DNA of 64,000 nucleotides, from assembly GCA_950295325.1 (NCBI GenBank), contig OX485809.1, forward strand, positions 7,938,001 to 8,002,000. The letters run 5' to 3'. The stretch is from Polytrichum commune (Eukaryota > Streptophyta > Polytrichopsida > Polytrichales > Polytrichaceae). The notes under the pieces are model-generated. The model saw nothing but the letters and a program-made list of their open reading frames with translations, did no database searches and was not told where the DNA came from. A program made the translations under genes and the position numbers. Below are positions 4,454-50,085 of the stretch, one piece after another (the stretch's first letter is position 1; each line of letters begins with the position of its first letter).

Positions 4454-4455
<2 letters not shown>

Positions 4456-5353: not shown

Positions 5354-5355
5354 TA

Positions 5356-14700: not shown

Positions 14701-17025
14701 TTACATGATAGTGTTTATTGTGGGCCTCACTATAAGGTTGCCCAAGGTAAGTCACACTACAGATCTGCCCAAACTATTTTGAGCTTTTTTCAACACTATT
14801 TACCTACCAACCAACAGAATTCAACATCAAAGGTCCATGATGTAGGTTACATTACTTCTAATGGATTGAAAGTAGTGCACATTTGAAAGCCTTCCAATCT
14901 AGGGGAAGGAGGTGGTATATGACAGGGGGATGATGACAAGTGTAGCTAGGGTGGCACTATATTGTCTTGTGTGATGGTGTATACTGTGGGCCGCACTATA
15001 CAGTTGCCCAGGGTAAGTCACACTATACATCTGCCCACGCTATTTACCATGATTAGTGTAACTGCGTTATTTACTTCCAAGCTCCCTCAATAATTTCAAA
15101 CCTTAATCCATGGACTTTTCAGATGTTGGGAAAAATTCAACCTGACAGCTTGCCGAAGTTGATTACCAGACAGAGATGCAAGTTTGGCACCCCAATCTTT
15201 GGCCCTAAGAGCTCTCCTCTTGCTTGCCCCCTTGCTAGCCTTCTCTTCCATTTCCTTACTTTCATCTTCCGAATTGCTTGTTTGAAGGGCGTCACCACGT
15301 TTCGTATATTGCAAGTAGCTGTCTTTAAGACCCTTCTTCCTCCGCCCGTGGCTTTTTCCTGCAGTTCCTGTGTGCGCTTCCCTGATGAATATATACCAGC
15401 ACTGTCAAACAATGACCGATGAATTGCTACTGAGAAATGTCAACACATATTGTGGCATTAAAAAACCAACACTGCAAGAAAAATGGAGTGTGCTGTTGAT
15501 CTTGCATGTTGCTAAAAAGGTCTAGAAATTCAATAGTTCTAAAAAATGCTTCTAAAAATAAATAAATAAATAAATAACTAGGGTTATGTAATATATGCTA
15601 ATTTATGTCTTCAATGTTGAGTCAATGTTGATACATACTCTTCAAGGTTTACTGTCATTTTAATGCTAACTTAACTTTTACCAAAGGATTCATTTAGCAC
15701 CGATTCCACTCATCTGCAGGGTTGAAAATTGCAACCCTGCATCTGGTAGCCATGAATTCACCATTGTAGTTTGATGTGAATGAATCAATGTGATCTATGA
15801 ATCGGGATTAATAATCTCTGCATTTAAATTAATTGTGATGAAGTCGTTTGATGAGTATTAGACCGTCTCAAGTTGGGTTACAGTAGATTTGATTCACACT
15901 TTCCTTACCCCATTTCTACTGCGTGTGTGTGAATTGCAGCCTTCGCACTCAGGCCATGAGCACTCGGATTGTGAGGCTTTGAAGCAGAAGTCAATTACCA
16001 AGACTATGCTATATCTATAGTATGCTAACTGTCCATATTACATTAATTCAACTCCAAATTCATCCTACTAGGTCTAGTAACAATAAAATGTAGAAATAAA
16101 AGCTGGAAATTGCAACCCTATGTTTTGTAGTCACTGATTCAACGTTGGTGGAGTTTGATGCCACTGAATCGATGTGAAATCATGTCGATATATGGATTTA
16201 ATGTTGATATATGAATTTGGATGTTTGCTATGTGATATTCAAGTTCGAGAAAATTTGAAAACGATGATAATGAGCAGGAAGAGAGTGGGCATCTGATAAT
16301 CCAGGGAACACCACTTAGCACAACATTTCGCTAATGTTTCATTCAACATTGATTCAAGTCTTGCAACTCTAAATTGTAGAAATAAAAGACAAAAATTGCA
16401 ACCCCATTTGGTAGGCATTAATTCAACGTCGATGCAGTTTGATGTCTTTGAAATCAATGTTGATATATGAATTTAATGGTTTGTGGTGTCATATTCAAGT
16501 TTGAAAAGATTAAAAAAACCATGACAACGACCAGGAAGAATAGGCACCTGATAATCCAGGGTACGGCACTTGGCACAACATTTAGTTAGTGACTTATTCG
16601 ACATTGATTCATCCCTTGCAACACTCAAATGTGGAGATAAACGAAGAAAATTGCAACCCTATGTTTGGTAGGCATTAATTCAACCTTGATGTAGTGTGGT
16701 GTCATTGGATCAATCTGAAATCACTGTCGATATAAGAATTTAATGGTTTGTGATGCGATACTCAAGATTAAAAAAAATTTCAAAAACCCATGAAGATGTG
16801 CAGGAAGAATAGGCACCTAATAATCCATGGAACAGCACTTGGCCGCTCTTGAGCCCATCCGGAGTGAGGGGGGATGCTGATACGAGAGATGCAAGTAGAC
16901 TCTCCACTGGAATGCAATAAAAAATCTGAGGAGGAGCAGGAAATGCCCAAAACTGTCCTGCGGCAAATACGAGAGGAGAGAAGAGTACTGGAAGGCCTCC
17001 ACAGCTGCCTACTAGCCTGAAGCAT
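11743..17025 (-). CDS. DarP/YjgA-like (DUF615) organelle-targeted protein
   Basis: The bacterial DarP/YjgA family helps mature the large ribosomal subunit; a role on organelle ribosomes is inferred for plant members. Seven exons keep frame: 17025-16839, 15358-15142, 14325-14277, 14048-13997, 13711-13545, 12950-12834, 12141-11743 (395 residues). Residues 1-62 are Ser/Arg-rich, start MLQASRQLWRPSSTLLSSR and look like a plastid or mitochondrial transit peptide. The family core follows: basic KSHGRRKKGLK, then ASKRRALRAKDWGAKLASL (about 110-130), LAKLPEEVYDAVILVK, VRNGKRRQFNYIG (about 156-169) and LLREADPELMEQVLK. An acidic linker comes next, then QRWIAGLLGG (about 234). A long acidic insert with repeated SLEAA/SLETA follows (about 275-350), ending ALFNFLFDLARRR near the C-terminus. 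Bacterial members are about 180 residues, so the insert and leader make it twice as long. The exon 1 donor (CCAA|GTGCTG) is the least certain junction; it was chosen because only it gives the required phase. Start chosen as first in-frame ATG of the leader. Confidence 0.8.
12247..12705. mobile_element. Harbinger/Tourist-like MITE in last intron of the DarP-like gene
   Basis: The left end GGAGCACTTTAAA and right end TTTAAAGTGGCCC are imperfect inverted repeats of the GGGCCACTT family. The interior matches the copies at 19830 and 42507 (tract CCTACATGGCATGCAATG...TTTCATGGTC). The left flank is TTA and the right flank is TGA, so one base of the 3-bp duplication has drifted. It lies wholly within the intron 12142-12833. 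Confidence 0.7.
14580..15060. repeat. Two-unit direct repeat, about 263 bp, in an intron of the DarP-like gene
   Basis: The tract TAGGTTACAATATTTCTATT... (14580) recurs as TAGGTTACATTACTTCTAAT... (14843). Both are followed by GACTTCC or GCCTTCC, then AGGGGAAGG, then a GGTAAGTCACACTA box. The unit is diverged and non-coding. Pieces of the same sequence recur near 43690-44060. Confidence 0.75.
15953..16009 (+). pseudogene. Inverted copy of ABI-like exon 4 inside the DarP-like gene
   Basis: This 57-base tract matches exon 4 of the ABI-like gene (25698-25599, minus strand) at about 51 of 57 positions, in the opposite strand orientation to that gene. It keeps an open frame with the residues HEHSDCEALKQKSITKTM, against HEHSDREGLKQQSIAKTM in the gene, and a possible acceptor (GAATTGCAG at 15931-15939) just upstream. 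The intronic repeat found 5' of the real exon also precedes it (15690-15800). No neighbouring ABI exons accompany it, so it is a stranded exon copy. It lies antisense in intron 1 of the DarP-like gene. Confidence 0.85.
16060..16850. repeat. Three-unit direct repeat spanning the exon 1 donor of the DarP-like gene
   Basis: Three units of about 260 bp each carry an intronic-repeat part (AATTGCAACCCTATGTTT and variants) followed by a block resembling the exon 1/intron 1 border: TGATAATCCAGGGAACACCA at about 16295, TGATAATCCAGGGTACGGCA at about 16549 and TAATAATCCATGGAACAGCA at about 16818. The last is the real border. The duplication has created two decoy exon ends within intron 1. Confidence 0.85.
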
Positions 17026-17184
17026 CACTCCAGACTGTAAAATCTCCACCGCCACAGGAGCAACGTATGAAACGTGTGGCACAACACCAACCTGAAAATG
17101 CGAAATTCCTGTGCACAAATAGGATGAGATGCAACGTGAGAAGTGTAATGAAATGGTAATTGCAGACAGACACCGGTAGCGCCG

Positions 17185-18440
17185 AAGGATATGCAAGTTT
17201 CCCTCCCCGAAGCAGAGGCTTTGGAGGAATTGAATTCTGGAAATTCTGGGATTCGGATGAACCCTTAAAACCCTAGCAATGGAATCGAAAACCCAGGTTT
17301 TCCAATTTTGGGTGGATTTGCAGAAACCTGGGTTTAATTACGGCAATGGCGATCATGGTCGAGTGGGTTTGGTGTCACAAGGTCATGGGTTCAAACCTGC
17401 TCATGAACGGGTGAAATCCCAATGGCATAAAAACAATGCTTACGCAACACTTGGGTTTTGGAGGAATTGGATTGTGGGATTTGAATAGATTTTTAAACCT
17501 CGGCAATGGAATTAGAAACCTCGGTTTTTTAATTTAGGTTGAATTTGTAGAACCATGGGTTTAAATATTCCAATGTTGGACTTTCAAGGGTGATTTGATC
17601 AAAAGGATTTGGTGTCACAAGGTCATGGATTCGAACTTGCTCATAAACAGATGAAAGTCCATCTAGCGTGTGGGAATGAAAAGATGTCAATTTTTGTTTT
17701 GGGGTCAAAAGCATGAGGCTTTGTCACGATGACCTGGTAGTGAGTAAACATTGGCAATTGCGAAGAAATGATGCTTACGCAATGCATGGCTTTTGGAGGA
17801 ACTAGATTATGGGATTCAGACTGAAACCCTTAAACACTGCAAGTGGAATTGGAAACCCAGTTATGGGTGGAATCACATGAACAAGGCTAACATGACTCCA
17901 AGTGTGATGGTTTGGTGGGTTTAGTGCCATAGCATCCTTGGGTCAAACCCACTCGTGAACTATTGACATGGTAATGTGCAAACACCGGCAATGCCGAAGC
18001 ATATGCAAGTTTTCTTGTGTGCAATAGGGGTTTTGGAGGGTTTTGATTTGGGGATTTAAATAGACTCCTAAATCCTTTACATTAGAAATGAAAACTCAGA
18101 TTTTGGTTAACCACTTCATGTGGTGGTTTGGAGGGAGTTGGTGTCACAAGGTCCTTGGTTAAAATCCACTTATGAACTAGTCAAATTATAATGTGTAGAC
18201 CTCAACAATGGCAAAGAATGCAATATTCCCTACTTACCCAAAGGAAGTGTTTTGGAGTAATTGGATCATGGGATTTGGTGAGACTTTTGAACCCTCATAG
18301 TGGAATTGGATCATGGGATTCAGTGAGACCCTTAAACCCTAACAATGGAATTGTACACCTCGATTTTTCTTACTTGCAAAAACATGGGTTTCTTGACTCC
18401 AAAGTTGATGGTCCGTTGGGTGACCACCAACGTATCACAA
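17185..18440. repeat. Tandem array upstream of the DarP-like gene, 5-6 diverged units
   Basis: Units of about 220-330 bp repeat a string of landmarks: TTTTGGAGGAATTGGAT, then a GGGATTT tract, then AAACCCT...CAATGGAATT, then GGTTTGGTGTCACAAGGTC, then a CTCATGAAC box. TTGGAGG landmarks lie near 17220, 17457, 17789, 18030 and 18249. The proximal edge (CCGAAGGATATGCAAG at 17181) matches CCGAAGCATATGCAAG at 17994, so the array reaches into the 5' region of the gene. Some units carry tRNA-like A and B boxes. Confidence 0.85.
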
Positions 18441-18966
18441 AATGATGAAAAGCCCGGGGTGTCCACTTTCTTTCATTGCAGAATTCTAAAGGCAACACCA
18501 TCATGAAGAAATCAAAAAAATATTGTAATAAAATCTTCAGTTTTCAATTAATGACAAGTATACTCCCATGATTTCTTTCTCTCCTATTCATTGTTCTATT
18601 ATACAATTAAAATTTTAAAAAAATGTTCACACAAATGAGTATGTATGTATATAGTAAGATAAACACTATACACCAATAGCTACATGTCTAACATATTCAT
18701 CATAAAAGTACCCCTTAGAAGAAGAAAAATCCTCATGTTGGGCCTAACTAGTGGAGGTCATCTCTCCATGAAACCCTAATACCAAATACCCGGAGGACGC
18801 CTCTTGCTCCCAAGCCAAAGGCACATGTGAACCTTCCCAATACGCAATTCACCAGCCATTGGTTCACTATTGAATTGTTGGACTTATGCAAAGCAAGCTT
18901 CCTCTATCCTCTAGCAGATGAGCCAGTTGGAGGCACAATCTGAAGCCCAAATCATGCTCTCTTCTA

Positions 18967-19681
18967 CTATTCTCCCTGTTTAGTATGACACGTTTGGGAA
19001 ACACACAAAAATAAGTCGTATTATCAAGGTGTCGTCTTCTCATTAATATGACAAATGGCATAAAGTTGTCATATTATCGAGAGAATACGATAACATAAGT
19101 GATATGAGCTTAAAATATATATACAATGAGCTTAAGCAATATAGATGGTATGAAATAATAACTTATGATTCCAAACAAATATAAATATTCTCAAGAACTC
19201 TTGAAACAGGAGTCCAAAGATCTATGGTTTTGCCTACCCAAGTTAGCAACTGTCATCTTATCTAAATCCCCTATTGACTTTTGAAGACTAATAATTTCAT
19301 TAACACCAAAATATAACGAGTTGTCTAATAAGAAACTAGACAACAATGATGCATGACGTTTAGCAACATATTAGGCAGGAGGCCACTCTAACCCTAAACA
19401 TGTCCATTCTGCACTAGTAACCCTAATTCTCATTAAGTTCCCAATGATAAATGAAGTTCCCAAGTAGTTCCCAAGTGAAAACGGATGTATTTTAGATGTA
19501 CATTACATAGATGAAAAGAATTTTAACACTAACTACCTCTTTAATATGACAAAACATAGATTCTAAATGTCACATTATTGAGTGTCGTAGTCGTACAAAA
19601 GAGGGAGTTTTGAACTAAAAACTTTGGTCGCGCAAAAATGTGTCGTAATATCAAGGGTGTCATATTAATGAGGTTAGACTA
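18967..19681. mobile_element. TA-flanked Tc1/mariner-type MITE, copy A
   Basis: The left end CTATTCTCCCTGTTTAGTAT and the right end, whose complement reads TAGTCTAACCTCATTAATAT, share ATATGACAC/AGTATGACAC sub-termini and lie inside TA. It is 715 bp and non-coding. It is closely similar to copies B (21590) and C (30186). Around 19365-19385 it reads ACATATTAGGCAGGAGG, the uninterrupted form of the site that is split by another element in copy C. Confidence 0.85.
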
Positions 19682-19829
19682 TACTTGCAAAATTGGCACA
19701 TCTCCTTCATGGTGGTTGTCAACAACTGTGTTGACCACATTACACAAAGAGGGGAAGTCTTATTTCTTCGAGCATAAGCATGGGCCTTAGAACTATTCAT
19801 AATGTAAAGCAGATGAAACCATGGGATTA

Positions 19830-20328
19830 GGGCCACTTCACACACACAAGACTGAGAGCCCGTGACCAGTACACTTCAAGCACTCTCATTGGTGGAAATG
19901 GCGGAGCCGGTCCAAGTTTGCTTCACACTACGCTCAAGAGACCAACAGAATACGTGAATGCAAGATGGATGTAAAGTCTACATGGATTCCTACATGGCAT
20001 CGAATGGATCATGTTTCATGGTCATGGACTATTTTCAAAAACCACCTCTTGGAGGTAGGCCTAACACAAAACTGAGAGACCATAGCACTTTAAATGCTCA
20101 CAACTATTGGTGTATTCTATTTTATCATGTGTGAGGACCTGCTTGAATAGAAATTCATTGAAATAGCATTTGTTTGAGGGCCCGATCACATATGACTTCA
20201 AACTACACTTGAGGGTCCGTGACCACACTACATGCTTTTGGAGGTGGTTTAGGACGGCCTTTGGACACTTTCCTTTGGGCTCTCACAATTTCATGGTCAC
20301 GGCTCTTGGCTCATGTGTGAAGTGGCCC
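19830..20328. mobile_element. Harbinger/Tourist-like MITE, TTA target duplication
   Basis: The ends GGGCCACTTCACACA and TGTGTGAAGTGGCCC are near-perfect inverted repeats. A TTA duplication flanks it at 19827-19829 and 20329-20331. It is 499 bp and non-coding. The 3-bp TTA duplication and the GGGCC start are those of PIF/Harbinger-derived Tourist MITEs. Family members lie at 12247, 30610, 42507 and 53786, with a partial copy at 48348. Confidence 0.9.
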
Positions 20329-21589
20329 TTAGTCCCAATCCCTAAGTTTATGAGAATGAACACAAAGTCACCCAAGTTTCCTTAATGCTTAAATTATCAT
20401 ACACAAAGAGCGATGTCAGGCTATTAAAATCTAGCTTTCTAGCTTGTTCTAGTAGGATGGGTGGGTCCCATTTTATTGCATACCTTATTTCAAATCCTAA
20501 AATTCTCTTAAAATTTGAGAGGTGGAAAGAGGAGGTCTCAAAAGTTTCACACAACTTTCGAATGCACAACGAGCTAACGAGCGTTTAATAGAAAGCTTTC
20601 TCAAAGAAGGATCAAACCCACAGTTTTGTCCCTCTTGAAGGACTTTATTGTTTTGGTCTATGCTTGGCCTGCCCATCGTAGATAGTAGGGCAAGCTAGAA
20701 AGCCGGTATTAAAACACCCGATAAAAGGTGTACAATAATTTACACATTAAAAAAATTGTGGGTGAGTTTGTGTTGATTCTCATGAATTGAAGGTTTCATT
20801 TGCTTTACTTTACAAATGATTCTACTGAAAATGAAAACGACCATTTTTGATGATTTGACACCAAAAATAGCATCAAAAACATTGAATTAGTATTGAAGAA
20901 TCCAAGAGGAATGAAAATTGGCCCTCAACGTATAGAGGACTTGTTTTTACTAGAGCCCCTTCATTCACAATGGATGAGTTTACATAACACCATGGAGCTT
21001 GATCCGTCCAACTAGAAGCAAAGACTCGAAACTGCCCAACACACTCTACACTCCGTAATATCACGCTCGTGGCAACCAAAGTGCACATGATATTAAGAAG
21101 CTATGTTAACATGGGTGCGTGATGAAAGAGAATTAATGTAGCATGTGACATTGTGGAATAACACAAAGTCAACATTACAACAATGACAATCAACGACAAT
21201 GTGATGTGTGCAAGCATGTGGTTGAGTTTCCTTGATGACTCATTTTGATGTCCAAACCCATGATGTAAGGGAGGCAAACGTGACAATAAGGAGGGAGATT
21301 TAAACTAAGAACATCCGTTCCCTAGAGTCCCGGGATACACGGGAAGGAGTGACATTAAGGAGGTTGACATGGAGTTGAGAGCGTACTACATGCATAAATA
21401 CAGAAGGAAAGCTGTCTCTAATAACTTAATGCTTAAAAGGGTAGGCACACAAAGTACGTACCATTCTCCAAATGAGTGTGACACCTCACCCTCCTGCCAC
21501 TCAAACTGCCATGGTACACATGGAGTAATTAGTTCACCTTTCTCTTTTTGGGAGGTAAGGTACTATTGATGGCACTTTAGAAATGACTA
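20329..21589. other. Spacer between MITEs, with one dispersed repeat
   Basis: No gene was recognised. The part from 21055 to 21380 recurs at 43320-43655 (see that entry). The rest is AT-rich with no landmark. Confidence 0.5.
21055..21380. repeat. Dispersed direct repeat (partner at 43320)
   Basis: Long matching blocks such as GTGGAATAACACAAAGTCAA, GCAAGCATGTGGTT and GGAAGGAGTGACATTAAGGAG occur in the same order in both copies, with indels. No terminal inverted repeat or coding frame was seen, so the element type is unknown. Confidence 0.75.
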
Positions 21590-22308
21590 CTGTTCTCCCT
21601 CTTTAGTATGACACGTTTGGGAAACACAAAAAAAACAAGTCGTATTATCATCGAGATGTCGTCTTCTCACTAATATGACAAATGGCGTAAAGTTGACATA
21701 TTATCGAGGGAATACAAAAACATAAGTGATATGAGCTTAAACTTATTTATACAACGAGTTTAAGCAATATAGATGGTATGAAATAATAACTTATAACTCC
21801 AAACAAATACAAATATTCTCAAGAACTCTTGAAACAGGAGTCGAAAGATCTCTGGTGTTGCCTACCTAAGTTAGCAATTGTCATCTCATCTAAATTCCCT
21901 ACTAACTTTTGAAAACTAATACTTTCATTAACACCAAAATATAAAGAGTTCTCTAATCAAAAACCAGACAATAATGATGCATGACGTTTAGCATCACTAA
22001 GTTTTACTATAGGTAGAGCAACGTCATCCACGTCTACACTAGTATCCCTAATTCTCATAAAGCTCCCAACGGTAAGTGAAGTTCCCAAGTAGTTCCCAAG
22101 TGAAAATGGATGTATTCTAGACGTACATAACATAGATGAAAGGAATTTTAGCTATAACTACGTACCTTTAGTATGACAAAACGGAGATTCTAAATGTCGC
22201 ATTATCAAGTGTCGTAGTCGCAACAAAGAGGGAGTTTCGAAGTTAAAAGTTTGGTCATGCAAAAATGTGTCATAATATTGAGGGTGTCGTATTACCGAGG
22301 GTAGACTG
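21590..22308. mobile_element. TA-flanked Tc1/mariner-type MITE, copy B
   Basis: The left end CTGTTCTCCCTCTTTAGTAT and the right end, whose complement reads CAGTCTACCCTCGGTAATAC, lie within TA (21588-21589 and 22309-22310). It is 719 bp, non-coding and the best preserved copy of its family. The CAGT terminus and TA duplication recall pogo/Tigger, like the element at 4850, but the two families do not share internal sequence that I can see. Confidence 0.9.
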
Positions 22309-22310
22309 TA

Positions 22311-23208
22311 CTCAATCACCTTGCTCAAACTGACAGGTCTGTCAGGTATAAAGTTGGGTGACGCAAGATCTGTGAATCAGCCATTAAAAAAGTATAGGAG
22401 CATCATACCCCACGAGGTCGTCTTAAAAGGCTGATGTTTGTACAATAAATGGCAAGGCTCGTATTCAGGAATGGACATCAGAAAGACATATGTTTAAGAA
22501 ATGAGTTCAAAATCAATCAACTATTTGAGGTTCATCAGTGAACAGAATTAATTGGGAGTGCCTGTGTGATCATTACAAGAGAGAATATCTTCACTTTGGA
22601 CTCCAATTGCTTGTGCTACCCAGAAATGACAATTCCCAAACCGATCCAACAGTCAAAGATGTGGAGTTGGAATTGCCCACAACAGGGCCACGTACCTTGA
22701 GCATCCTGGGTCTGATGCATCACTTCTTCGTCAGCACGCTGATTTTTGTTGATTGCAAGGATGGAACGATCCATTTGAGGCATAAATATGACTTGTAGAA
22801 ATATACAAACAGCTGAAGGCAAGATTCAGTTAGAGTGTTTGAAGTAGTTATCATCCCCTTACACGCTGGGGCTTTATTGTGTATCAAAAAGAATTTTTGA
22901 ACACAATTGAAATTGTAAGGAACACAATTTCTCTCTTCACGTGTGCAAGTCTAGACTCTAAACTAGAGGCCACGGCCACCGTTCTATTCTGTTCTGGAAT
23001 GTGTACTGAAATGGTTTTGATACAAGTTGCCTTTATTGATTGATGGGCATGCAGGGCAAAGGAGTTATGTTTGTAGAACATGTGTATGTGTCCTAGCTCT
23101 CTGCAGGTTGAAAGATGGCATGGAGGTGAAATCTTACGTGCTGAGTGATAGGGAATTCTAAAATTAAATTTAAGCGATCACCTGAGCAAGTAGACTTGCC
23201 CACCAACT
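22311..23208. other. 3' flank of the ABI-like gene, no further gene
   Basis: The block at about 22540-22680 is a dispersed repeat: AATTGGGAGTGCCTGTGTGA...ATCTTCACTTTGG also appears near 13815-13870. A short minus-strand frame at 22700-22790 ends at a GT but has no acceptor or family match. The 3' UTR of the ABI-like gene must lie in this stretch. Confidence 0.45.
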
Positions 23209-26200: not shown

Positions 26201-28015
26201 TGACTGAGTAGTCCTTTAGATTGTCCAACACCCTGCCAGAGTTCCAACATTAATTGAGCCTATGAAGAAGTTATGGAAATGATCATTTTCAAAAAAATTG
26301 TCAACAATGATTCAACTACGCACATGGGGAGTCGGAAAGGAAAAACAGGGTGAAATGAAAGAACGCTCACCCCTGTTTGTTGTCACCAAAAAGATATTGG
26401 TGTTCACAGTAGTCAGCTGCTTGATAGAGCTGTGGTCGCAAACTTTTCAGCTCCTGCCAGACACACAACAAGTATCTGTCATCATAGACGGTCTCTACCA
26501 ATCTTTCTGGTCTTCGCCGTGACTTTGAATGTGAACACAAAATTTGCAAGAAAGAGTACAGGGAGTGGTCAAAATGAGTGAACAGAAGGTTTAAGAAGGG
26601 GTCGTGAGCTCCATCACTGCTTACTTCTGTTACAGTAGAGTAGAAGCAAATTAAACATCGATTTATAATGCATAAAAGGTCACTTCGAAATCCGCGTCGG
26701 AGGCGCTTTGATAAGAAATTGCTGGAGAATTGAAGAAACGGCAGAACTACTCACGAGACAGAGGAAAAGTAAAATTCTGAACAACAGGTGATGTGTAACA
26801 ATGCAGATAGGAAACAAATGCGTCTAAGAGCTTCAGGTTCGACAGCTTTGACTGTTGAGGTAACGTTAATATGGGATCGAGAGCTCCATCACTCCTCACT
26901 TCTGCCTGGTTCTGTTACGTTAGAGTAGAAGCAATACTGTGGTTCATAATGCACGAATAATAAGTAATTCTTGCCATCGCTCGAACAGAAATGTCTTCTC
27001 CGGAACGATCTTAGGTCATCTCGAATGCAAGGCGGATGCACTTTGGTAAGAAAATGAAGAAACGGCAGAACTCAAATCGAGACAATGAGAGTGAGAAAAA
27101 AGACACAGAGTGAAGTTCTGCAGAACAGGCGGTGTAGAGTAATGCAGAAAGGAAAGTTCATGTGCGTCTAAGAGGTCGAGGATCATTCTTAAGCGAAAAC
27201 TGAAGAGATTAAATAAATCGAAGTAGAAAACTGGACACCGCGAGTAATTTTCGAAACCTTATGAGCGGGAGTACAAGGAATTCGTTAACTGAGAGCTCTA
27301 TCACAGCTTACATCTGCCTATTTCTGTAGTATAGTAGAAGCAAAACTGTAGTTCATAATGCACTAAAGATATGTAATAATTCCTGCCATCTCTCGAAAGA
27401 GCAACTACATAAGAGAAATTTCTTCTCCGGAACGACCTCAGGTCACCTCGAATACACTTTGGTAAGAAGTACGGGATAAAATGAAGAAACGGTAGACCTC
27501 AAAATCCACGGCCCATTGATGAGAGTAATAAAACTAGAGAAAAATAGAAGTTATGCACAATAGGTGATGTTGATTGCAGAAAGGAAAGTCCAAAATTCGT
27601 CTAAGAGCTTCAGGATGATCTTCGAGGAGGAAAGTTCGACTGAATATAAGTGGGAGCGAAAAAAGAGTTTCGTTAACCGACATAATCCCATTGATGAGAG
27701 TAATAAAAATAGAGGAAAGGGAAGTTTTGCAGAACAGGTGGTGCAGAATGCAGAAAGGAAAGTTCAAATGCGTCTAAGAGCTTTAGGATCGTCTTCAAGA
27801 GAGGAAATCGAGATGAAATAAATCGAAGTGGAAAACTGGACACTGAGGAGTAAGTTTCACCAAAGAATACCACTGATCACCACCGCTATCACTTACACAC
27901 TCACCCGGTCACTTACCTGCAAGGCTAAGAGGAAGGTGCGAGTCTTGTCCAACTCCTCTTCATCTTCTTGTAACGAGGAACGCGTCTCCTCTTCATCACT
28001 GTCTGTTTGCTCCAT
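23209..28015 (-). CDS. ABIL: ABI-1-like (ABIL) subunit of the SCAR/WAVE complex
   Basis: ABI proteins belong to the SCAR/WAVE regulatory complex that activates ARP2/3 actin nucleation at the cell cortex. Nine exons keep frame: 28015-27917, 26453-26371, 26232-26082, 25698-25599, 25144-24983, 24432-24336, 24060-23999, 23879-23671, 23328-23209 (360 residues). An acidic N-terminus (MEQTDSDEEE) leads into the conserved helical region, about residues 22-144: TFLLALQELKSLRPQLYQAA, ADYCEHQYLFGDNKQ, LDNLKDYSVKALVNAVDHLG, TVAYKLNDLIAQHQHEV and ACHEHSDREGLKQQS. A Ser/Pro/Ala-rich linker follows (about 150-320), and the C-terminus is basic (GKGILRSLLGRRT), as in plant ABILs. Length fits the family (about 300-400). 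Intron 4 must use a GC donor (CCAG|GCATGT) to keep frame, unless a small exon was missed. Introns 1 and 3-8 hold arrays and repeats. ATG chosen because it starts the acidic leader and the first exon ends in a good donor. Confidence 0.88.
23395..23520. repeat. Intronic repeat family (GCAACCCTATGTTTGGTAGG type)
   Basis: One of several copies, here inverted. Others lie at about 15690-15800, 16085-16160, 16320-16470, 16590-16710, 24770-24960 and 25720-25880. Shared parts are an ACAATAAAATGTAGAAA-like box, AAATTGCAACCC, GGTAGGCATTAATTCAAC and GTTTGATGT. I see it only in introns of the DarP-like and ABI-like genes. No terminal inverted repeats were found. Confidence 0.75.
24770..24960. repeat. Intronic repeat family, copy in ABI-like intron 5
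   Basis: Contains ATCAAATATAGAAACAAAAG, AAATTGCCACCCAATGTTTG and GTACACATTGATTCAATATT, the landmarks of the family described at 23395, in the plus orientation. Confidence 0.7.
25720..25885. repeat. Intronic repeat family, copy next to ABI-like exon 4
   Basis: Contains CGAATCAATGCCCACCAAAT, GGGTTGCAATTTTAATC and CATTTTATTGTTGGAAAAAC, the inverse of the same landmarks. It lies immediately 5' (in gene sense) of exon 4, the same arrangement as at 15690-16009 in the DarP-like gene. Confidence 0.75.
26600..27850. repeat. Tandem array in intron 1 of the ABI-like gene, about four units
   Basis: Landmarks recur in order: TAGAGTAGAAGCAA near 26636 and 26921 and a variant near 27330; GAAGAAACGGCAGAAC near 26737 and 27057 with a variant near 27482; GCAGAAAGGAAAGTTC near 27144 and 27747 with variants near 26803 and 27577; and GCGTCTAAGAGCTT at about 26820 and 27770, with variants near 27168 and 27597. 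Period varies from about 170 to 430 bp, so units have suffered indels. It is non-coding and GA-rich on the plus strand. Confidence 0.8.
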
Positions 28016-28466: not shown

Positions 28467-28554
28467 GCGAGATTCCTGCTCACTTTTTATAGCGAGCTGA
28501 TCTCTCGAAATGACTACTTGCATTTGCAATCTCCTCTTTCCAAAAAGAACAATA

Positions 28555-29470: not shown

Positions 29471-29761
29471 AAGTGGCAATTAAATGATATGATTAATAAG
29501 GCTGTGAAGTGGATGACCGGTTTCTGCCATCATCATCACGTTCAGCTCATGCTTCTGGCGATGGGGCAACATGGCGGAATGAGTGTCCAAGTAAGCTCAG
29601 TACTCGATCGACATCGATCATGACGATCATTCATGAGTCCGCATGGCTGGGGTCGGGGGATGCAGGATTTAGATCCGATTGATGAGTAGTAGTCCCTGCA
29701 TCGATGGCGCCCGAAGTCTTTGACTCCATCCGCAATATCTGCACACATATAAAGTACGTCA

Positions 29762-31519: not shown

Positions 31520-31521
31520 TA

Positions 31522-37974: not shown

Positions 37975-38884
37975 TACATTCCTTCTGCGCCTTTTGCGGC
38001 ATTATCCCTCCATATCAGACTTCCCAGAGAGTAAAATTCATCCACTTGTTGCAAATTCCGGGTGTCAGACCCAGAAGCTTGGAGCAGTACTCTTGCAATG
38101 TCGAATTGACGACTGGAGGGAAAATGAGCTTGTCTTCAAAGCAAACATAGTAATTGTAAGGAAAGATATACCTTACGGGATTCGAACCGGAACCCATGTT
38201 CTCGCCATGACAAGACGATGTCCTGTATACCCCCAGACGAAAGGGACAAAATTGCTTTGAACAAATATATTCGGCCAGAGCTGCGGCTGTGCTGTATTTC
38301 GAATAGGATCGTCAAGATCCGTCGCTTACACTGTGCTACGATAGGGTTTGTCGGGTGATTGCATGAAATTCGCCTGCATCGTCCTTTGAGAAGACTACCG
38401 AATTGAACTGATATTGTCGACCGCTGAACAGACTAGACTCTCTTATGATATATTACAAATGCATGCACAAGTCCTTGGAGGAAAGAGTGCCACATCGAAG
38501 GCAAAGATGGTGAGCAAACTTAGGCTTGAAACAGACGCCACAAGTAATCGACAATAACGAACACAACAGCAGAGTGAATTGCACACTGATTGCTCGAAAG
38601 GAGACCAACTTCGGGATCGCGGGCCAGCTTGGGACACGCAATCATCTGGCACAAAGTGCATTGAGAGTCCCCGCCTGTGGTCCGGACTGCAGGACTTGGT
38701 GCACGTAATTCGAACATAGTGACTGGAACTCCAATAGCAGCACCAAATCCTCTCCTAATCTCGCTTATTGTTCCCCCTCCCCTGTGCAGTTTTCCGATAT
38801 CGATAACCGGATTAAAATAACCGAGCAAACTCGACAAATTGAAATCATGTACCGACAACTGAAACTCCAGGATTATTATGTAAA
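37975..38884. other. USB1 upstream region
   Basis: Holds the promoter and 5' UTR of USB1. No TATA box stands out. A GGTTCGAATCCCG B-box-like tract lies on the minus strand near 38175-38190, but no tRNA folds around it (see rejected items). Confidence 0.5.
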
Positions 38885-39245
38885 CACGCGAAGGAGCGGA
38901 GCGATCAGAAATTTCTCTTCAACGCGCCAGAGACAAGTCGGTAGCCAGAGAAAGCTGCGAATATGACCACAAAATACACCGCATTTTCTCTCAGGTTTCG
39001 TTGTCGCTCTCCTTTTGCTCTTTTTCTTCAAGCCTCCAAGGAACAAACATGAGCTTCAAATGACACAAACCAGAATCCGCGATCAGAAATTCCTCTTCAA
39101 TGCGCCAGAGACAAGTCGGTAGCGAGAGGAATGCGCGAATATGAACACAAAACACACCGCATTTACTCTTAGGTTTCCTTCTCGCCCTCCTTTTGCTATT
39201 CTTCAAGCCTCCAAGAAACGAACAAGAGCTTCAACTGGCACAGAC
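38885..39245. repeat. Two-unit tandem repeat, 178-bp period, upstream of USB1
   Basis: GATCAGAAATTTCTCTTCAA at 38903 and GATCAGAAATTCCTCTTCAA at 39081 begin units that continue CGCCAGAGACAAGTCGGTAG, then AATATGA(A/C)CACAAAA, then TTTTGCT...CTTCAAGCCTCCAAG and CACA(A/G)ACCAGAAT. Divergence is about 10%. A start of a third unit is seen at about 39241. Confidence 0.9.
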
Positions 39246-39369
39246 CAGAATGCGATGGCTTCCTTCTGCAACCTGTCCCCGACAATCCACGCGAAACCCA
39301 GCCGTACGTCACGTCCTCGGCTTGTAAACGCGGCGAGCGATCGAGATCAAACAAAGCGCGCGTTAAGGC

Positions 39370-40030
39370 ATCCCCTTCCGAACTTAAGCCGCCATAACCT
39401 TAACGTGGTCTGCACTGCACTTCCACGGCTCACAAAATCGGCGATCGATCGAAATCAAGAAATATCCAAAAACCGAAGACCTCTGCAGCAGCAATGAAAT
39501 AGCGACAGTCCACCTTAAGGCATCTCCGATGACAGCAAGTGCCTGGAAATGGACACATTCACGTCTACAAGTTGAAGCCGTAGGAAAGTCATCCAACGTC
39601 CTTAACAGAACTAAAGCCGCCAAAACCTTGACGTAATTCGCACTTCCACGGCTTAGAAAAACGGCGATTCAAATCAACAACGCAATAAGTTCCAAGCATG
39701 TAGCAGCAATAAAACAGCAACAGTCCAACTTAAGGAATCTTCGGTCACAGCAAGCGCCTGGAAATCATGCACTCACGTCTATAAGTCGAAGTCGTAGGAA
39801 CGTCATTCAACGTCCTTTACCGGACTTAAGCCGCCAAAACCTTGACGTAAATTACACTTCTAAGGCTTCCACAAGGGCGATCTGATGCAAGGAGTGCAAC
39901 AAGTTTGAAGGATTTGAAGCAGCAACGAGACAGTAGCAATCGCCCTTAAGGGTATCTCCGAAAACAGCAAACGCATGGAAACTGCATACGTACTCATCAG
40001 GAGTCGAAGTCGTAGGTCGCATTGGATTTG
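39370..40030. repeat. Three-unit tandem repeat, about 214-228 bp period, upstream of USB1
   Basis: AAGCCGCCATAACCTTAACG (39386), AAGCCGCCAAAACCTTGACG (39614) and AAGCCGCCAAAACCTTGACG (39828) mark the units. Each goes on with a CACTTC(C/T)A(C/A)GGCT tract, a GGCGAT box, CAGCAGCAA or similar, a GACAGT/CAACAGTCC...CTTAAGG tract and GACAGCAA...GCCTGGAAAT or variants. I saw no coding frame common to all units. Confidence 0.9.
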
Positions 40031-40216
40031 CGAAGAGCCAATCCTTTTCCGCACACAAAAGCGCAAGAATATACGCATCACGCCTTGCCATGGCCCACTC
40101 TACTTTCTTGTGCATGCGGCTATGGTCATGGCCATGGCCATGGCTCTGGTTATGGCTATGGTTATGAAGAAGGAAGATCTTACGACGAGGAAACCTTCGG
40201 TGACGCCATTACGGCG

Positions 40217-40445
40217 GAGAACGGGAAAGCGCATAGTGGAAGGAAGGCCGTCTGCTCAGTAAAGTGCACTCCAGTAAAGTCTCAACACGTGTCTAATGAC
40301 ACGTAGGCGCGTAATGGACGTGAAGGAAATCTCAGCTTATTGCTGCGGAGAACGGGAAAGCGCAGAGTGGAAGTAAGGCCTTTGTTGAGTGGAGTTCATT
40401 CCAGTGGGGTTTTGACACGTGTCTGTGACACGTAGGCGTGTGTTA
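40217..40445. repeat. Two-unit tandem repeat with G-box palindromes, 131-bp period
   Basis: GAGAACGGGAAAGCGCATAG (40217) and GAGAACGGGAAAGCGCAGAG (40348) start units that both include GTGGAAG(G/T)AAGGCC and end with a CACGTGTC...GACACGTAGGCG box. The second unit holds the 10-bp palindrome GACACGTGTC (40414-40423). CACGTG is the core bound by plant bZIP and bHLH factors. Confidence 0.88.
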
Positions 40446-42506
40446 GACATCTTCTATTAATTGTAGATTACATCATCCAACATAAAAACTTGACTTCCTA
40501 TATGTTTGTGGTCGTATCATATCAAATGACATGGATCAGACTAATTCATGATATTTGAAGCTAATTATGGTGTCAATTCAACTAAAATAGGTAACCTCTA
40601 AATTGCATATCATTTAAAGGTTTTTATAGTACACTCATATGCGATTATGTCCTCTTGTCATGTGTGTGTGTTTGAGAGTAACAATAACCACAAAGTGACA
40701 CATGTTTTACCAAAGGACAGTATTGGAAGCTCGTATCATTGACAAAAGCATATGCTTGCTTCTTTATTTTTATCTATATTTACCTTGGAAGATAAGTAAT
40801 ATGTCCATGAGTAAAGTATTGAGCACTCCTAAGCCCAACCTCAATCAAGAGGAGTAAAACAATAAACAAATGTGTTGGTATGTAATTCCATTACAAATGC
40901 TACTAACCTTTATGGTTATGTGAATTCATGGAGAATCGTGCCACATAATTCCCTCAAAATTTCCATGAGCACCAAATTCAATATCTGAATAGGCTGCACC
41001 ACAAACTTCCAAGTCCACACACACACACACACACACATTACGAAATAAATCTTAATTCTTAATGGGACTTTGTTAATAAGTAATAGTATATGCTTTTGTC
41101 AATATGGACATGTGTCACTTTTGTTAATAAGTAATAGTATATAGTCTTTGTAGGCGTCTAGTTTACTTGGTGCACCAAACTCTACACTTTACACTTGCAC
41201 CATATTCCTATCAACATAACTCTTGCCAGAAGAATGCGCCTCAAACTTTGGAACCTCCACCACATTCATTTGGATGGGATGTTATGAAACGGTGGCTCTA
41301 TCTCCAACAAGGAATCCTTGGCCGATTCTATACTTGCCCATCATGATATGCATTTCCTCGTGATGTGTGACACCTTAACAACACAAAATCCTTCGTGACT
41401 TGCTATACCATTTGGTTGTTTTGGTGTGATGGAATTGTACAATGCTATAAATTTCTATTCCAAGTTTCATCGTTTCAATAACATAGCATAGATTGGAGCG
41501 GCATGCACACTATATAACATAAGAAAACTTAGTTGCACAAAGTTTCTCGTTATTGGGACATGACTTTTAGAAGAGATTGGATTGCACGCTCAAACATGAT
41601 GATCATTTTATGTTCAATAGTCAGCATCATTGGAGGGACCTTTTTTGAACATTTAATGAGCATGCGAATCTTCACTTTGATGACGAATAAGATATTCATA
41701 TGAGCTCCAAAAATCACGAGGAAAAGTGGCTACGGCTTCAATGCGGATTTGCTAACCATCTTTGTACACATGCATTAGATGGATACTTTCCTTCCTACAC
41801 CCACTTCTCATATGGTCTTAACCATGGAATCAATACAAGATGATTAGCAAAACCGAATTGTGCCCATAGCCATTTGCATCATAATTTCCAAAACTCATAC
41901 GAATGGCTTATTCATCTCCAAAGTGAAAAATCTTGTGTTTATTAAGTGGTCGTATAAGTTTCCTCCTCCCCCCCCCCTCCCAACAAAAAACAAAATGAGT
42001 AAAAATCATGTTGATTGTTGAGCCTAAAATGGTTAGCATATTTTAAACACATCGTCTAATCTCTTTTTCACAAATGTCTTGTTGGTGCCAGTCTCAAATC
42101 CACACATAACCACATATATATATACCGCTCTAAATATAAGTTGTCCAAATTATTGTTGTGTTTGATTTCAAGCACCTTAATTGCATGTTTCATATCCTAA
42201 GCGAAGAGAAGTGGTCTACTTGGAGAAAGTAACCATTTAACACCCATCTACCTTGGGTGGCAATGTTGACGAGCTCTTTGAAACTCGACATCAAGTGGGA
42301 TACTTTCTCTCACTTTCTACATCACCCACTTGCATGGATTACTTGGAAAGGGGTTTGGACGGGGACCTAGTGTCACACAACTTTTCATAGGCCATCATCA
42401 AATATGGATCATATTTTGGATGGTTTCTAGATCCATCTAGAATATGGACAATGGCAAGTGTGGTGGGAGTCTGGGCCCCACCAACTTAGGTAGTCTTTGA
42501 CCATGA
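40446..42506. other. Spacer, no gene seen
   Basis: Contains a (CA)n run at about 41015-41037 and a poly-C tract at about 41967-41980. The part 41687-42260 recurs in shortened form at 58813-58960 (GATATTCATATGAGCTCC..., GGATTTGCTAACCATCT..., GCATGTTTCATAT...), so it is a dispersed repeat. No coding exon was recognised. Confidence 0.5.
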
Positions 42507-43013
42507 GGGCCACTTCACACATGAGACTGAGAGGCCGTGACCATGGCACGTCAGCACTCTCATTGGTGGAAAAGGCGGAGCCGGTCCAAGTTCACTTCAC
42601 ACTATGCTCGAGGGACCAACGGAGTGTATATATATATATATATGCAAGATGGATGTGAAGTCTACATGGATTCCTACATGACATCGAATGGATCATGTTT
42701 CATGGTCACTTGGACTATTTTCAAAAACCACTTCTTGGAGGTAGGCCTAACATAAAACCAGGGGACCATGGCAATCCGAACACTCACAACCGTTTATTGA
42801 TTGTATTTGATCATGTGCGAGGACCCACCTGAACAAAATTTATTGAAATAGCATTTGGTTGAGGGTCCGGTCACATATGACTTCACACTACACTTGAGGG
42901 TCCATGACCACAATACATGATTTTGGAGATGTCTTGGGATGGCCTTTGGACACTTTCTTTTGGGCTATCGCAATTTCATGGTCACGGCTGTTGGCTCGTG
43001 TGTGAAGTGGCCC
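42507..43013. mobile_element. Harbinger/Tourist-like MITE with internal (TA)n
   Basis: The ends GGGCCACTTCACACA and TGTGAAGTGGCCC are inverted repeats. Flanks are TGA and TAA, a one-base decayed 3-bp duplication. The interior closely matches the 19830 copy but carries a (TA)8 run near 42625-42641 that the other copy lacks. Confidence 0.87.
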
Positions 43014-43319
43014 TAAAAGTTACAATGATACATGTCATGCATGTCAAATTTTATATATGACAAGATTCAACCCTTATCAACTTAGTATTTTAAACCTTAG
43101 TATTGTGTCTACGTTCCTCCGGAGTTACCTACGCTTGTTTGGATGAGCTAAGGTGCCACCTACATCCAATCCGGTGGCTATAAGCTTGGAATACTACACC
43201 GGTTATTGAAAATATTGTTGGCCACGCTATAAGCAGGGATATCAACACTAAAAACATCATGGAATTTAATGTGGATGCACACTACATTCCAACATGCAAT
43301 AGATACATTTTAAACTTTG

Positions 43320-43655
43320 TAATGTCACACTTGTGGCAATCAAAGTGCACGTGATGGTAAGGAGTTATGAAGTGTTATCATGGATGCAGGGTAAAAGGAG
43401 AAATATTGTAGCATGTGATATTATGGAATAACACAAAGTCAACACTGCAATAGTGACAATAATTTCAATAAATGATGATAATGTGATGCGTGCGAGCATG
43501 TGGTTTGAATCTGTTGGTGGTTTATTCAAATGTCAAAGACCGTGCTATATAGGAGGGAAACATGACAACAATGAGCGAGGTTGAAACCATGAGTATCCAT
43601 TCCCCTAGGGTTTTGGGATGTGAGAGAAGGAGTGGCATCAAGGAGATTGATATTA
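43320..43655. repeat. Dispersed direct repeat (partner at 21055)
   Basis: Shares GGAATAACACAAAGTCAAC, GCGAGCATGTGGTT, AGGAGGGAAACATGACAA and GAAGGAGTGGCATCAAGGAG with the 21055-21380 copy, in the same order and strand. Non-coding. Confidence 0.75.
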
Positions 43656-45678
43656 TGGAGTCCAGAGTGTAACATATGAGGTCTATGATGTCGATCATAA
43701 TATTTCAATCGGATGGAAAATAATGTGCATGTGAGAGACTTCCAAAAAAAAAGGTCCAACATGTACCCGTCCTTAATGAACGGTTCAGAATCTAAGACTA
43801 TGATACTTAAGTTATTTCCAAAAAGAGAGTTCAATAAAATGAACGAATTCTTATATATCCCAAAGATTATCCTTGGTAAATGTGATTAATCTATTAATAA
43901 GAGTTCCGTTCATTTTGGGTATGTGGAGAAATTGATGCAAAAACCAGTTCTCTAAGTATAAGGTTCCACACTATTTTGATGCATCGTGGAAAAACATTGT
44001 GGGGCATACTATAATGCATCAAACGGTAAGTCACACTCGAAGTATGCCATAATATTTACCATAAACAATGTAGTTAGGTATCTACATTGGTAAGTGTAAC
44101 TAGGTATAATGTGCTAAATAGATAGTGTATAGAGCATGAGTGGGGGTGATTTTTTTTTCACAATATCAAAGCTTTGCCAACTATTATAAAATTTCAATTT
44201 ATTTTGTTGATTTCTAAATATTAAATAAATAACTCTCTTATTTTAGAATTCTAAGTGTGATGCATTGTTATGAGACATTTGAGACTTGTGCAAGTGATTG
44301 ATTGGCATCCAAGGTGATTGTACTCGATTGCAAGCTTCTTGTGTAAACATTGTGTGTGACTTAGAGCGTTTGAGATTATTAAGAAAAAGGATAAAGTCTA
44401 TACCTATGACGAAATGGCATATTGGAATTGGTTTTGTATTGGGAATATGTGTTGGAATTGATGCACGTTCAATGGTTTGTAGCAAAGTAATGTCTGACAC
44501 ACTATACCTTACTCTTTAAAGTAGTGCTACGTTATTGGACAATTTCTACTAAAAACGGTCACATGCTACCGGACACTGGTAATGGCTATTAGTTACTAAA
44601 GGTAGTGTCTACTCCCTACAAGGGGTGAAGTAGTTTCACATCTAATGTCATTGTCCTTACGACGTGCCCAAGGATGTTTTACGAACAAATACTCTACCCA
44701 CTCTAGCCTCCTTCGAAGACCATAGTTCTTCTTCTTCTTTTGATTATATGTTTTAAACAAGATTATGTTTATTGTCTCAACATTGATCACCTCCAAGGTG
44801 CAAGATCTAATTTGGCAGACATTGGGAGAGTGATTGATTGCCCAAGCATGTTTGCATGTGTGTGTGTTAAACTTCATGTTTACAATACATGGATGTCCAT
44901 TGTCTATCTATTATCAAATATACGCATAAATGTGAATGAACATTGAAATGGAAGTTGATTGTCTACAAACTCTATTCAAACTATGAAACCTTCACACTAC
45001 AATGACACCCAATTGGATTGGTGGACAACAAATAGTTTGATGATCTTGGAGGGAATTTAGCGATTGGCATCCTAGGATCATATTGAGGAGGGTAGATAAT
45101 TCCCCTCATTGAAACATGAGCACTAGCTTCATTTACAACAATTCATCCTTGACTGAGGACGGTATTGTCTCGTAAACAATCCTACTCGTACATGATTAGT
45201 TTGAATTGGTTGTTCCATCTGGAAAGGTACATAACATTATTAAGCAGTGTGCGTTTGGTCATGTGGACCCCAAGAATGTAACCATGAGATGCCACAACTA
45301 GTGCACATTTAGTCTTTGGCCAATCGAAGGTAGTTGTTCCATTCCTAAAGATTCCTCTTGCATGATCTTGGGCCAAGACACAGCTTATGTCAACACAATA
45401 AGTGACAAGAAGAAACCTTGGGAAATTAGTTGCTTGCCCATTGTCTTGAATGCTTTGAACTTGAGGAATCTTGTCTCGTAAGGTAGCAACGCCTTAAAGT
45501 AACATCTTCCTCTTGGCACCACATATTTTTCATCCTTAAGTTGTCAACAAGTGAGTGCAACAGTATCATCAAGTAAGTCATAGTTAAACATGATGAATTA
45601 TACGCGGCATCAAGTACAAAATAGCACCACTTTGGCCATTCATAATAGTGTTGTAAGAAGGTTGCAAGAATACTTTAA
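43656..45678. other. Spacer, no gene seen
   Basis: Holds decayed pieces of the repeat found twice at 14580-15060 (near 43690 and 44020). No exon or transposon end was recognised otherwise. Confidence 0.5.
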
Positions 45679-46987: not shown

Positions 46988-47052
46988 GTACGAACGAGGA
47001 GGATCACAATGTGAAAGAGAATGTAAGTACAAGCAATGTGGATGCACTATTA

Positions 47053-47206: not shown

Positions 47207-47208
47207 TA

Positions 47209-49506
47209 TGAACCAATATGTATTGAGGAAGGATGTACTTTGCATGACTTATGTGCATTTTGGAGTCTCTCGATTGGTGAACTTCAAGGAAAAATCCGTA
47301 TACTTCACTTGGTAATGTACAATGCAATAATCAATAGTTTTGACTTTTTGACCGAACAATGTGATAATCAATATAGAAGTTTATTGTACTTGCAAGGAAT
47401 CATGCTGCTATAATTGAAAAAATGGCATAGATTAATTAACCATACTATGAACTTTTGACCTTGATTTGTGCTTTGGCCTATTGTCTCTAAATATGTATGT
47501 GTGTATATTTTGACCTTGCTAGGTAAAGGACGATTGTTTGACATTATAATTAAGAGATAACCAATCAACGGAAATTGTTACCATGTGATTGTCCTATGCA
47601 TAGGTTTTTCTATGCATGTGCACTACACAAGGTCCCACATAAACAAACCTCGTTGCCATATTGTTATCATAGTAAATAAATCCGACCGTTACAAATGTAT
47701 ATATTATTGTGTGAGACCTTGAGCCTTTGATTAAGAGATAATAGTCATCATTGTCAATTCTTACCATAAATAACCTAAAATAAACATGTTTTACCCTAAT
47801 TAACATATCATAGACATGCAATTCTTGTGAAGTTACCTTTAAGTCTTTCATGAGTGTGTCCCTAAGTTTTTTCCTTCCCAAAATCTAAACCACAAGGTCT
47901 CTTGATCATAATCTTTTGAACTGGACCATGCCTAGGCTAACGGAGCAAATCTTGTTGCATGTGACACTCTACAACTCCCATCACTACACAAAGGGGACGC
48001 TCTTGACATTGGGCCCTTTCACATGTTAGGTTTTCATGTTGAATTATTTGGCAACTACAACTTGTTAATGGATAAAGTACATGATAACTTTCCAACATTG
48101 GGGTTCACCTCTTTTATGGGTAGTTAACAACTACTCAATGAAAACGTTGCTAACTCTTGAAGACCGGATTTAATTTCCTTTTGTTTTCTTTTTGTTTTCT
48201 TTCTTATGCATGTCGGTATCAAAATGACATATTGTTACATTTGGCATGATACTCTTTCATCAAACTTGCATCATCTTTGTGTGCTAAAAAACAATATAAT
48301 GTTGTTCTCTACTAAAACCTCCATTTGCTTAAGCTTTGATATGCTTAGGGCCACTTTACATACAAGCCAAGAGCAATTGTGACCATGAGAATCTAAGGGC
48401 CCTTGAAATCTTTCAAAAGGTTGTACCATGGGAAATCCGATTTTGCAATTGTAGGCCCTCAAGCTCAGCGTAAAGGAAAGTGGACCATGTCAAGGGAGGA
48501 CAACATATATTTGGATTCCAATCCCTACCAGGCCATGAACATAATCCACTTGTTGCCTTGTAGTACGTCATGTAGATATTTTACTTCTAAATTATTTGTT
48601 GTTGCAAAGTGTAAAATGAACTTGGATGTCTCTAACTTCTGGACCAATCACATAAGTTGCATATCATGGGTCAAGGCCTATCAAGTTACAGTGCAAAGTG
48701 ACCCTTACATCTCTCTTATTCAAATTGAATTTGAGAAATGCATAGTGAGACGACCACACTTAGAAAGAGTACATATAAGTAATATTGAAGAATGTCATGG
48801 GACTTTGAAAATCAAACTTGTTTGACACACATAAATGTTGGTATGGTATCCTGCCACGGCTGAGTTACAATTTCATGAAGAATTGACCTTTCCATGCATA
48901 ATGTATTGTAGAAGACTCTTTATTTCATTTATTTGTGCCGGAATGTAGTTTCCATGTGGGATACAAGTGATCTTAACAAGTGTGAGCATGACACGTGGCA
49001 GTTTTTTTTAAAGGGGAGAGTATTTAATTTGTGTCGGAATAGAGCCCTCTATGGTATCTAATTGTTGAAGTTGAAAAAAAAGCAATGGAATCCATTTGTT
49101 TGTGTTCAGAATTAACTACAACAACAACCCAGAAGGAATGAACATTGTTCATCCAAATTGGATGAACGCTGTCAGACCCCTGAGAAGTTCATCCTTCAGA
49201 CTCCGAAGACTTGCTCCAGCTTCGGAGAATGGCGGAGGCATGCAAGCAAGCGATGCCTCCACCTCACGAACAATTTTTAGTCCCCGAGCTTCAATGAATC
49301 ACCAAAAGACACTGTAGGTTATATCTCATCAGACCTGCAAAAAATAATTCAAATCTGAGTTCTTTGGAGCTCAGCTGTCCGATCCAGCTCAAATTCGCGG
49401 AAGATATGGTGATCGCCATTTGAGTATGTGGCCTTTGGTTGAATGCAATTTGGGTTATGATTTTTTGCAGCGGGACGTTTTCAGGAGACTGACTCTCCTC
49501 GGATCT
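47209..49506. other. Spacer with a broken MITE at 48348
   Basis: GGGCCACTTTACATACAAGC at 48348, preceded by TTA, is a left end of the family seen at 53786. The match runs to about 48480 (TTGTACCATGGGAAAT tract) and then stops, so the right part is lost. No gene was recognised. Confidence 0.55.
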
Positions 49507-50085
49507 CATCTGTTTTATATCTCAATAGATGTTTTGGAGAAATTTGGGAGGTTAGGGTTTGTGGAGGAAAGGTTTAGGTGCTGAGTGTAATTTCGCCGAT
49601 GTTTTCTGCAGCGGGGTAGTTGATGTGAGGATTGTGATGTATCATCAGCATCCTGGAAGTTTGAGATCGAAATCGGAGGTTGCGAGAGGTTGGGTTGAGT
49701 GAGTGGACATTGGACGTCATCTGTTTATAGTTCTGATGATTTTTATGAGAAAGTTTAAGTGTATAGGGTTTGTGGAGGGAGGGTTTAGGTGCTGAATGTA
49801 ATTTGGAGGATGGGGGTAATTTTCATGTGTCATTGCCATCATAGAGATTTGAAAATCAAACTCAGAGGTTGCGGGAAGTTTGATTGAGTGGACATTGGAG
49901 TTCATCTGTTTATAGTCCTATCGATTTTTTGGCGAAAATTTGGATGATTAGGGGTTAGGTCCTGAGAGTAATTTGGCTGATGTGTTCAGGTAAGTGATGG
50001 GGGGATCCTCGTGTGTCGTCGTCATCTTAGAGGTTTGAGAATAGAATTTGGAGGCTGCGAGAAGTTGGATTGAGTGGACAGGGTG
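49507..50085. repeat. Three-unit tandem array ending at the VPS36 start
   Basis: CATCTGTTTTATATCTC (49507), CATCTGTTTATAGTTC (49718) and CATCTGTTTATAGTCC (49903) start units with period 211 and 185 bp. Each continues with GAAA(A/G)TTT, GGTTAGGGTTTGTGGAGG or a shortened variant, a GGTGCTGA/GTCCTGAG GTAATTT tract, a GTGT(C/A)(A/G)TC tract and GAGGTTGCGAGAGG(TTG). The last unit stops 30 bases before the start codon, so it covers the core promoter or 5' UTR. Confidence 0.88.

Follow-up and report, generated by a model that had tools for sequence, protein, structure and literature searches.

The window analysed here, a single 64-kb stretch of nuclear DNA from a plant-like eukaryote, holds four genes whose 5′ ends are visible, and throughout this work their start codons stand in for transcription starts. 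These start codons were placed by splice reconstruction (Table 1), and genes were sought with Pfam on six-frame stretches in which stops were written as X, covering 1–60 kb of the plus strand and 1–45 and 49–64 kb of the minus strand. USB1 and VPS36 were recognized by their domains. For the DarP-like gene the domain match, in exon 2 at about 15.2 kb, was weak (E 0.2), and for the ABI-like gene the six-frame stretches gave no Pfam match; its name is that used in the earlier note, with which the exon 2 translation is consistent. A protein kinase with EF hands, a combination that fits a CDPK, was matched on the minus strand, and its 5′ end appears to lie beyond 64000.

More 5′ ends may lie within the window, for example near 4.3–5.7 kb or near 12 kb. 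The stretch from 4251 to 5750 is CpG-undepleted (observed/expected [o/e] 0.83–1.09), has no Pfam match and is adjoined by a direct pair with an offset of 66 bp (3902–4064); it is possibly another promoter or a recent insertion. On the minus strand, 11746–12159 stays open over 138 codons; its translation is acidic, repetitive and coding-like, with no convincing Pfam match, and this frame may be an exon.

Table 1. Start codons, first exons and tandem arrays of the four genes, in order along the window
Feature	Position	Strand	Details
Direct pair, probably in DarP-like intron 2	14574–15045		offset 262 bp; 79% identical; blastn E 1.3e-43; absent from the earlier note
About three-copy array, DarP-like exon 1/intron 1 junction	16072–16843		offset 255–286 bp; blastn self-comparison
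DarP-like exon 1, inferred	16817–17025	-	start codon 17025; in-phase splice to exon 2 at 15381
Complex array upstream of DarP-like start codon	17146–18368		1,011 of 1,223 bp in repeat matches
Complex array in ABI-like intron 1	26591–27858		offsets 175, 275, 324, 412 and 609 bp; blastn
ABI-like exon 1, inferred	27917–28015	-	start codon 28015; between two arrays; exon 2 starts at 26453
Array upstream of ABI-like gene	28532–29475		main pair 28731–29413, offset 321 bp, 75% identical
Recent tandem duplication, 93 bp	29761–29948		one mismatch; TRF and blastn; absent from the earlier note
USB1 start codon (HVSL family)	37974	-	Pfam matches extend to about 35.3 kb
Two-copy array upstream of USB1	38901–39254		178-bp unit; 86–87% identical
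About 2.8-copy array upstream of USB1	39380–40016		offset 228 bp; 74% identical by blastn, 63–77% between hand-cut copies
Two-copy array upstream of USB1	40208–40441		offset 131 bp; 80% identical (blastn)
About 2.8-copy array, VPS36	49506–50080		offset 211 bp; 69–76% identical; blastn
VPS36 start codon (Vps36_ESCRT-II and EAP30 domains)	50111	+	Pfam matches extend to about 53.7 kb

Repeats were called blind to the genes by comparing the window with itself by blastn, and pairs with an offset below 1.5 kb were counted as local. At E ≤ 1e-3 this gave 32 direct and six inverted local pairs. At E ≤ 1e-2 the real sequence held 36 local direct pairs, as against none in each of 10 Markov-simulated sequences, which yielded no local inverted pairs either. 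The earlier note had proposed, from the letters alone, that tandem arrays with units of 130–430 bp lie at all four visible 5′ ends, and the self-comparison recovered each array that it named, with edges within about 85 bp and main offsets of 131–412 bp, composite offsets being longer. A local inverted repeat at 41632–41966, with arms of about 130 bp that are 72% identical, is possibly a foldback element.

At the DarP-like gene, exon 1 is flanked by the upstream array and the intronic array. Every unit of the latter repeats the end of exon 1 together with its 5′ splice site; the donor copies at 16817–16826 and 16548–16557 have GT and that at 16293–16302 has AT, and alternative donors at the end of exon 1 are possible on this pattern. 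The offsets of the upstream array are 216–335 bp plus composites, with a main extent to 18359 and a weaker pair reaching its far edge. The additional pair at 14574 probably lies in intron 2. The intronic array of the ABI-like gene spans 1,268 of the 1,463 bp (87%) of intron 1, of which 1,105 bp fall within repeat matches. In the array upstream of this gene, weak partial copies flank the main pair. A TATAAAA at 28491, about 40 bp downstream of the array's weak lower edge, is weak promoter evidence since TATAAA occurs 60 times in the window. The nearby 93-bp duplication has an overlap of 2 bp at its junction.

USB1 has three separate arrays, 0.9–2.5 kb upstream of its start codon, and the most distant of them stops where CpG o/e falls from 0.75 to 0.28. 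The array of VPS36 stops 31 bp short of the start codon. ARAGORN called a tRNA-Asp (gtc) on the minus strand at 38165–38248, in the gap that separates the arrays of USB1 from its start codon; we rejected this candidate, which had no Rfam support (nothing at E ≤ 1 in a search of the whole window).

The local direct pairs are clustered at the gene starts. At E ≤ 1e-3, 30 of the 32 reach to within 2.5 kb of one of the four start codons, and 6,073 of the 6,310 bp of their footprint lie inside that distance, a density of 0.304 inside and 0.0054 outside; the limit of 2.5 kb was chosen post hoc, after the data had been seen, and the number of genes is four. The starts used in this count were within 3 bp of the exact values, and a recount with the exact values gave an identical footprint. 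Neither local inverted repeats (density 0.005 inside, 0.0227 outside) nor dispersed repeats (0.118 inside, 0.161 outside) showed a preference for starts. The earlier note's observation that spacers hold fewer arrays was borne out as well: at E ≤ 1e-3 only two pairs are farther than 2.5 kb from a start (3902–4064, and 11042–11078 with 11277–11313), plus a weak third at 11883–12078 (E 0.08). At E ≤ 1e-3 the interval 30–38.9 kb and the sequence past 50.1 kb, where USB1, VPS36 and the kinase have their 3′ parts, contain no local direct pairs, the 3′ ends of these genes being approximate.

We evaluated this placement in several ways. Under circular shifts and mirror images of the positions, the observed amount of repeat near starts was matched in 23 of 2,560 arrangements and the observed mean distance in 28 of 2,560; with four anchors placed at random and spaced by at least 5 kb, amount or mean distance was matched in 0 of 5,000. 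When pairs were grouped into arrays by hand, 10 fell inside 2.5 kb and two outside, giving a binomial P of 0.0003 that assumes independence, which arrays within one gene may not have. Planted tandem copies that resembled the real ones in length and identity were recovered in spacers in 297 of 300 trials and near starts in 287 of 300, so the clustering is not a detection artefact, a faster decay of spacer sequence being outside the model of this test. TRF returned 14 rows, of which the three with a period of at least 45 bp (16200, 18259 and 29761) are all near starts; the 11 short-period rows (4–33 bp) are not concentrated there, with five inside the 2.5-kb limit and six beyond it. At default scoring TRF proved too insensitive for units this diverged and recovered the arrays only partly. 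Tandem-duplicated DNA is thus confirmed to cluster at gene starts in this window.

The arrays consist of about two to four adjacent copies in direct orientation; in those at 14574 and 40208 the aligned copies are 26–56 bp apart, with no detected match between them. By blastn, the identity of pairs at E ≤ 1e-6 is 69–86%, plus one pair at 99%, and at E ≤ 1e-3 it extends down to 68%. Compared over their whole length, hand-cut copies are 63–87% identical, and outer stretches at the ABI-like gene, at 41–53%, are probably not full copies. The units of the ABI-like gene, USB1 and VPS36 match neither dispersed sequence in the window nor one another at E ≤ 1e-3, which agrees with the earlier claim that unit sequences differ from gene to gene; the exception is the unit in DarP-like intron 1, which overlaps a dispersed family found at about 15.7, 23.4, 24.8 and 25.7 kb. 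Gene-specific units, together with pair identities of 68–99%, indicate that duplication recurred independently, in events spread over a long time and not in a single burst. A satellite or minisatellite was rejected, as it needs many homogenized copies and the arrays have few and diverged ones. We also rejected a transposon with internal repeats, since the unit is not multi-locus in the window for the ABI-like gene, USB1 and VPS36, and is partly so for DarP-like intron 1. Dispersed families of about 70–90% identity, MITE-like by appearance, lie in spacers or introns at 18964–22312, 30174–31521 and 42503–43671.

Base composition differs between the arrays and the remainder of the window, with a CpG o/e of 0.68 across the arrays and of 0.43 beyond 2.5 kb of the starts. 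Six of the 10 arrays have a value of at least 0.70 (ABI-like intron 1 and upstream, the three of USB1, and VPS36), and the other four, the three DarP-like arrays and the 93-bp pair (0.30), range from 0.10 to 0.60. In overlapping windows, the mean array fraction was 0.655 in the nine with CpG o/e of at least 1.0 and 0.017 in the 85 at 0.3–0.5, while the 62 below 0.3 still had 0.057. Values of at least 0.75 occur at the ABI-like gene in 26.5–28.75 and 29.25–30.5 kb, with a dip to 0.59–0.72 over the upstream array; at USB1 in 38.0–40.5 kb; and at VPS36 in parts of 49.25–50.75 kb, with 0.65–0.68 across much of the array. Because 11 of the 35 windows at or above 0.75 lie away from the four starts and have no array, CpG state alone fails to explain the arrays, and position at a gene start predicts them better than CpG alone. 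This composition leads us to infer that methylation is largely absent from these 5′ ends in the germ line. A signature of methylation decay in transition/transversion ratios was not found (0.97–1.23 in arrays against 1.26 in other repeat pairs).

Known systems offer partial parallels. At FWA, the nearest locus-level parallel in that literature, four independent promoter duplications are described in closely related species, and the authors suggest that the duplications may be a consequence of epigenetic control and may stem from arrested replication or from nicking by the DEMETER demethylase (PMC2270340). Both cases show short tandem direct repeats, recurrent and independent, at the 5′ end of a plant gene. 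FWA, however, is a single imprinted, methylated locus with a SINE-related insert, whereas the units here are specific to each of four unrelated genes, six of 10 arrays are CpG-undepleted, and in three of the four genes the units have no dispersed relative in the window. In rice, patch-repair duplications arising from adjacent nicks are a common class of plant insertion and are said not to come from slippage (PMC7971508, citing Vaughn and Bennetzen 2014). Like the arrays here they are local tandem copies, but in rice the proportion of tandem duplications drops with length above 125 bp and is down to 5% by 200 bp, and a concentration at starts is not described in the part of that paper on which we draw. 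Against a repair origin of the rice type, for which units mostly below about 125–200 bp would be expected, offsets here include 93, 131, 175 and 178 bp but also 211–412 bp, and most units exceed 200 bp. Breaks with 3′ overhangs give rise to tandem duplications in human and mouse cells (PMC8355091). There too a tandem copy results, by near-blunt joining of filled-in ends; those duplications are small and were shown at induced breaks. Short tandem repeats delineate gene bodies across eukaryotes, with repetitiveness that likewise shifts close to gene ends, but the motifs concerned are monomers and dimers and not units of 90–400 bp (PMC11686069). Among titles and abstract openings of the open-licence literature, we found no description of 100–500 bp arrays clustering at plant gene starts.

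The earlier note had offered a local duplication process linked to promoters as one explanation, and in that general form the proposal is favoured by the data. We put at about one half the probability that the arrays reflect recurrent tandem duplication from nicks or breaks in open 5′ chromatin, followed by neutral drift. On this reading, 5′ ends, being open and for the most part free of methylation in the germ line, would suffer nicks or double-strand breaks, whether from transcription, from topoisomerase or from nicking in meiosis or demethylation. The stretch between two nicks would then be copied in tandem as staggered breaks are filled in and end-joined, so that stretches of about 90–400 bp around first exons would be duplicated repeatedly and independently over a long time. 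The resulting arrays would drift neutrally, lengthening promoters and first introns and sometimes duplicating splice sites. Terminal homology is readable only in the single recent event, the older arrays being too diverged; its 2-bp junction overlap is easier to reconcile with end-joining of filled-in staggered breaks than with slippage or unequal exchange. This junction, with the staggered-break and FWA parallels, favours a mutational hotspot at open 5′ ends.

The main rival to this reading is slower sequence turnover at 5′ ends. Duplications may have been equally frequent everywhere, with old ones surviving at 5′ ends only, as transposon insertion, deletion and deamination of methylated cytosine turned over spacers and distal introns faster. 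The somewhat higher density of dispersed repeats off starts (0.161 against 0.118) is in keeping with this, as are the CpG o/e of 0.43 away from starts, a sign of methylation, and the age of the arrays, 16 of the 17 strongest pairs being old (69–86% identity). Spacers nonetheless keep dispersed pairs of similar divergence (for example 734 bp at 85% and 516 bp at 84%), which argues that DNA of comparable age survives there. Detection power was also comparable in spacers, within a test whose model leaves out faster decay, and the sole recent duplication (29761) likewise lies near a 5′ end, although one event says little. We consider preservation bias rather unlikely as the explanation.

That the arrays are functional promoter or first-intron elements under selection, such as multiplied transcription-factor sites or elements of intron-mediated enhancement, we judge improbable. 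Their location upstream of and inside first introns would suit such a role, and ACGTG-type words recur in the USB1 array at 40208–40441. Yet conservation between copies is not clearly patchier in arrays than in dispersed and inverted pairs (mean z 2.77 in 14 alignments against 2.33 in 29), in what is a weak test, and a longest run at P < 0.05 occurred in two of the 14 and four of the 29; nor do the ABI-like, USB1 and VPS36 units share a common sequence at E ≤ 1e-3. The role in transcription that the earlier note had held out as its other possibility thus finds no support here.

Less probable again is an origin from transposons, in which SINE- or MITE-like insertions near 5′ ends were then multiplied in tandem, as in the FWA promoter. 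It draws on the unit of DarP-like intron 1, a member of a dispersed family, and on A-box- and B-box-like words at 17356–17397, in one copy of one array, that upstream of the DarP-like gene; they lie on the strand opposite the gene, like the SINE-related insert of FWA, and were found with a pattern derived from this array's own sequence. Rfam lends a SINE origin no support: the same array has no tRNA match at E ≤ 10, and its five Rfam matches are all far below gathering scores. With at most one mismatch allowed, the window shows no excess of B-box-like words (72 against an expected 75), and the units of the other three genes have no dispersed relatives in it. R-loop formation or replication slippage at promoters, the routes that the earlier note had suggested, are very improbable: strand asymmetry is strong at some arrays, with a coding-strand GC skew of 0.55 at VPS36, but the skew has the expected positive sign in only four of the 10, and from slippage one would expect terminal homology longer than the 2 bp of the one readable event (partly from PMC7971508).

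Tentatively, we extend the favoured reading, of duplication from nicks or breaks at open 5′ ends, to the possibility that tandem segment duplication has a standing hotspot at the 5′ ends of genes in this lineage. Serial local duplications via nicking or breakage may, over long periods, build up promoter islands and first introns there, with splice donors and the surroundings of core promoters multiplied as a by-product. If general, this would reveal the sites and the manner in which plant promoters and first introns grow and would tie a common, poorly mapped class of mutation to open 5′ chromatin. Whether promoter repeats are a cause or a consequence of chromatin state would then become testable with an assembled genome and methylation data.
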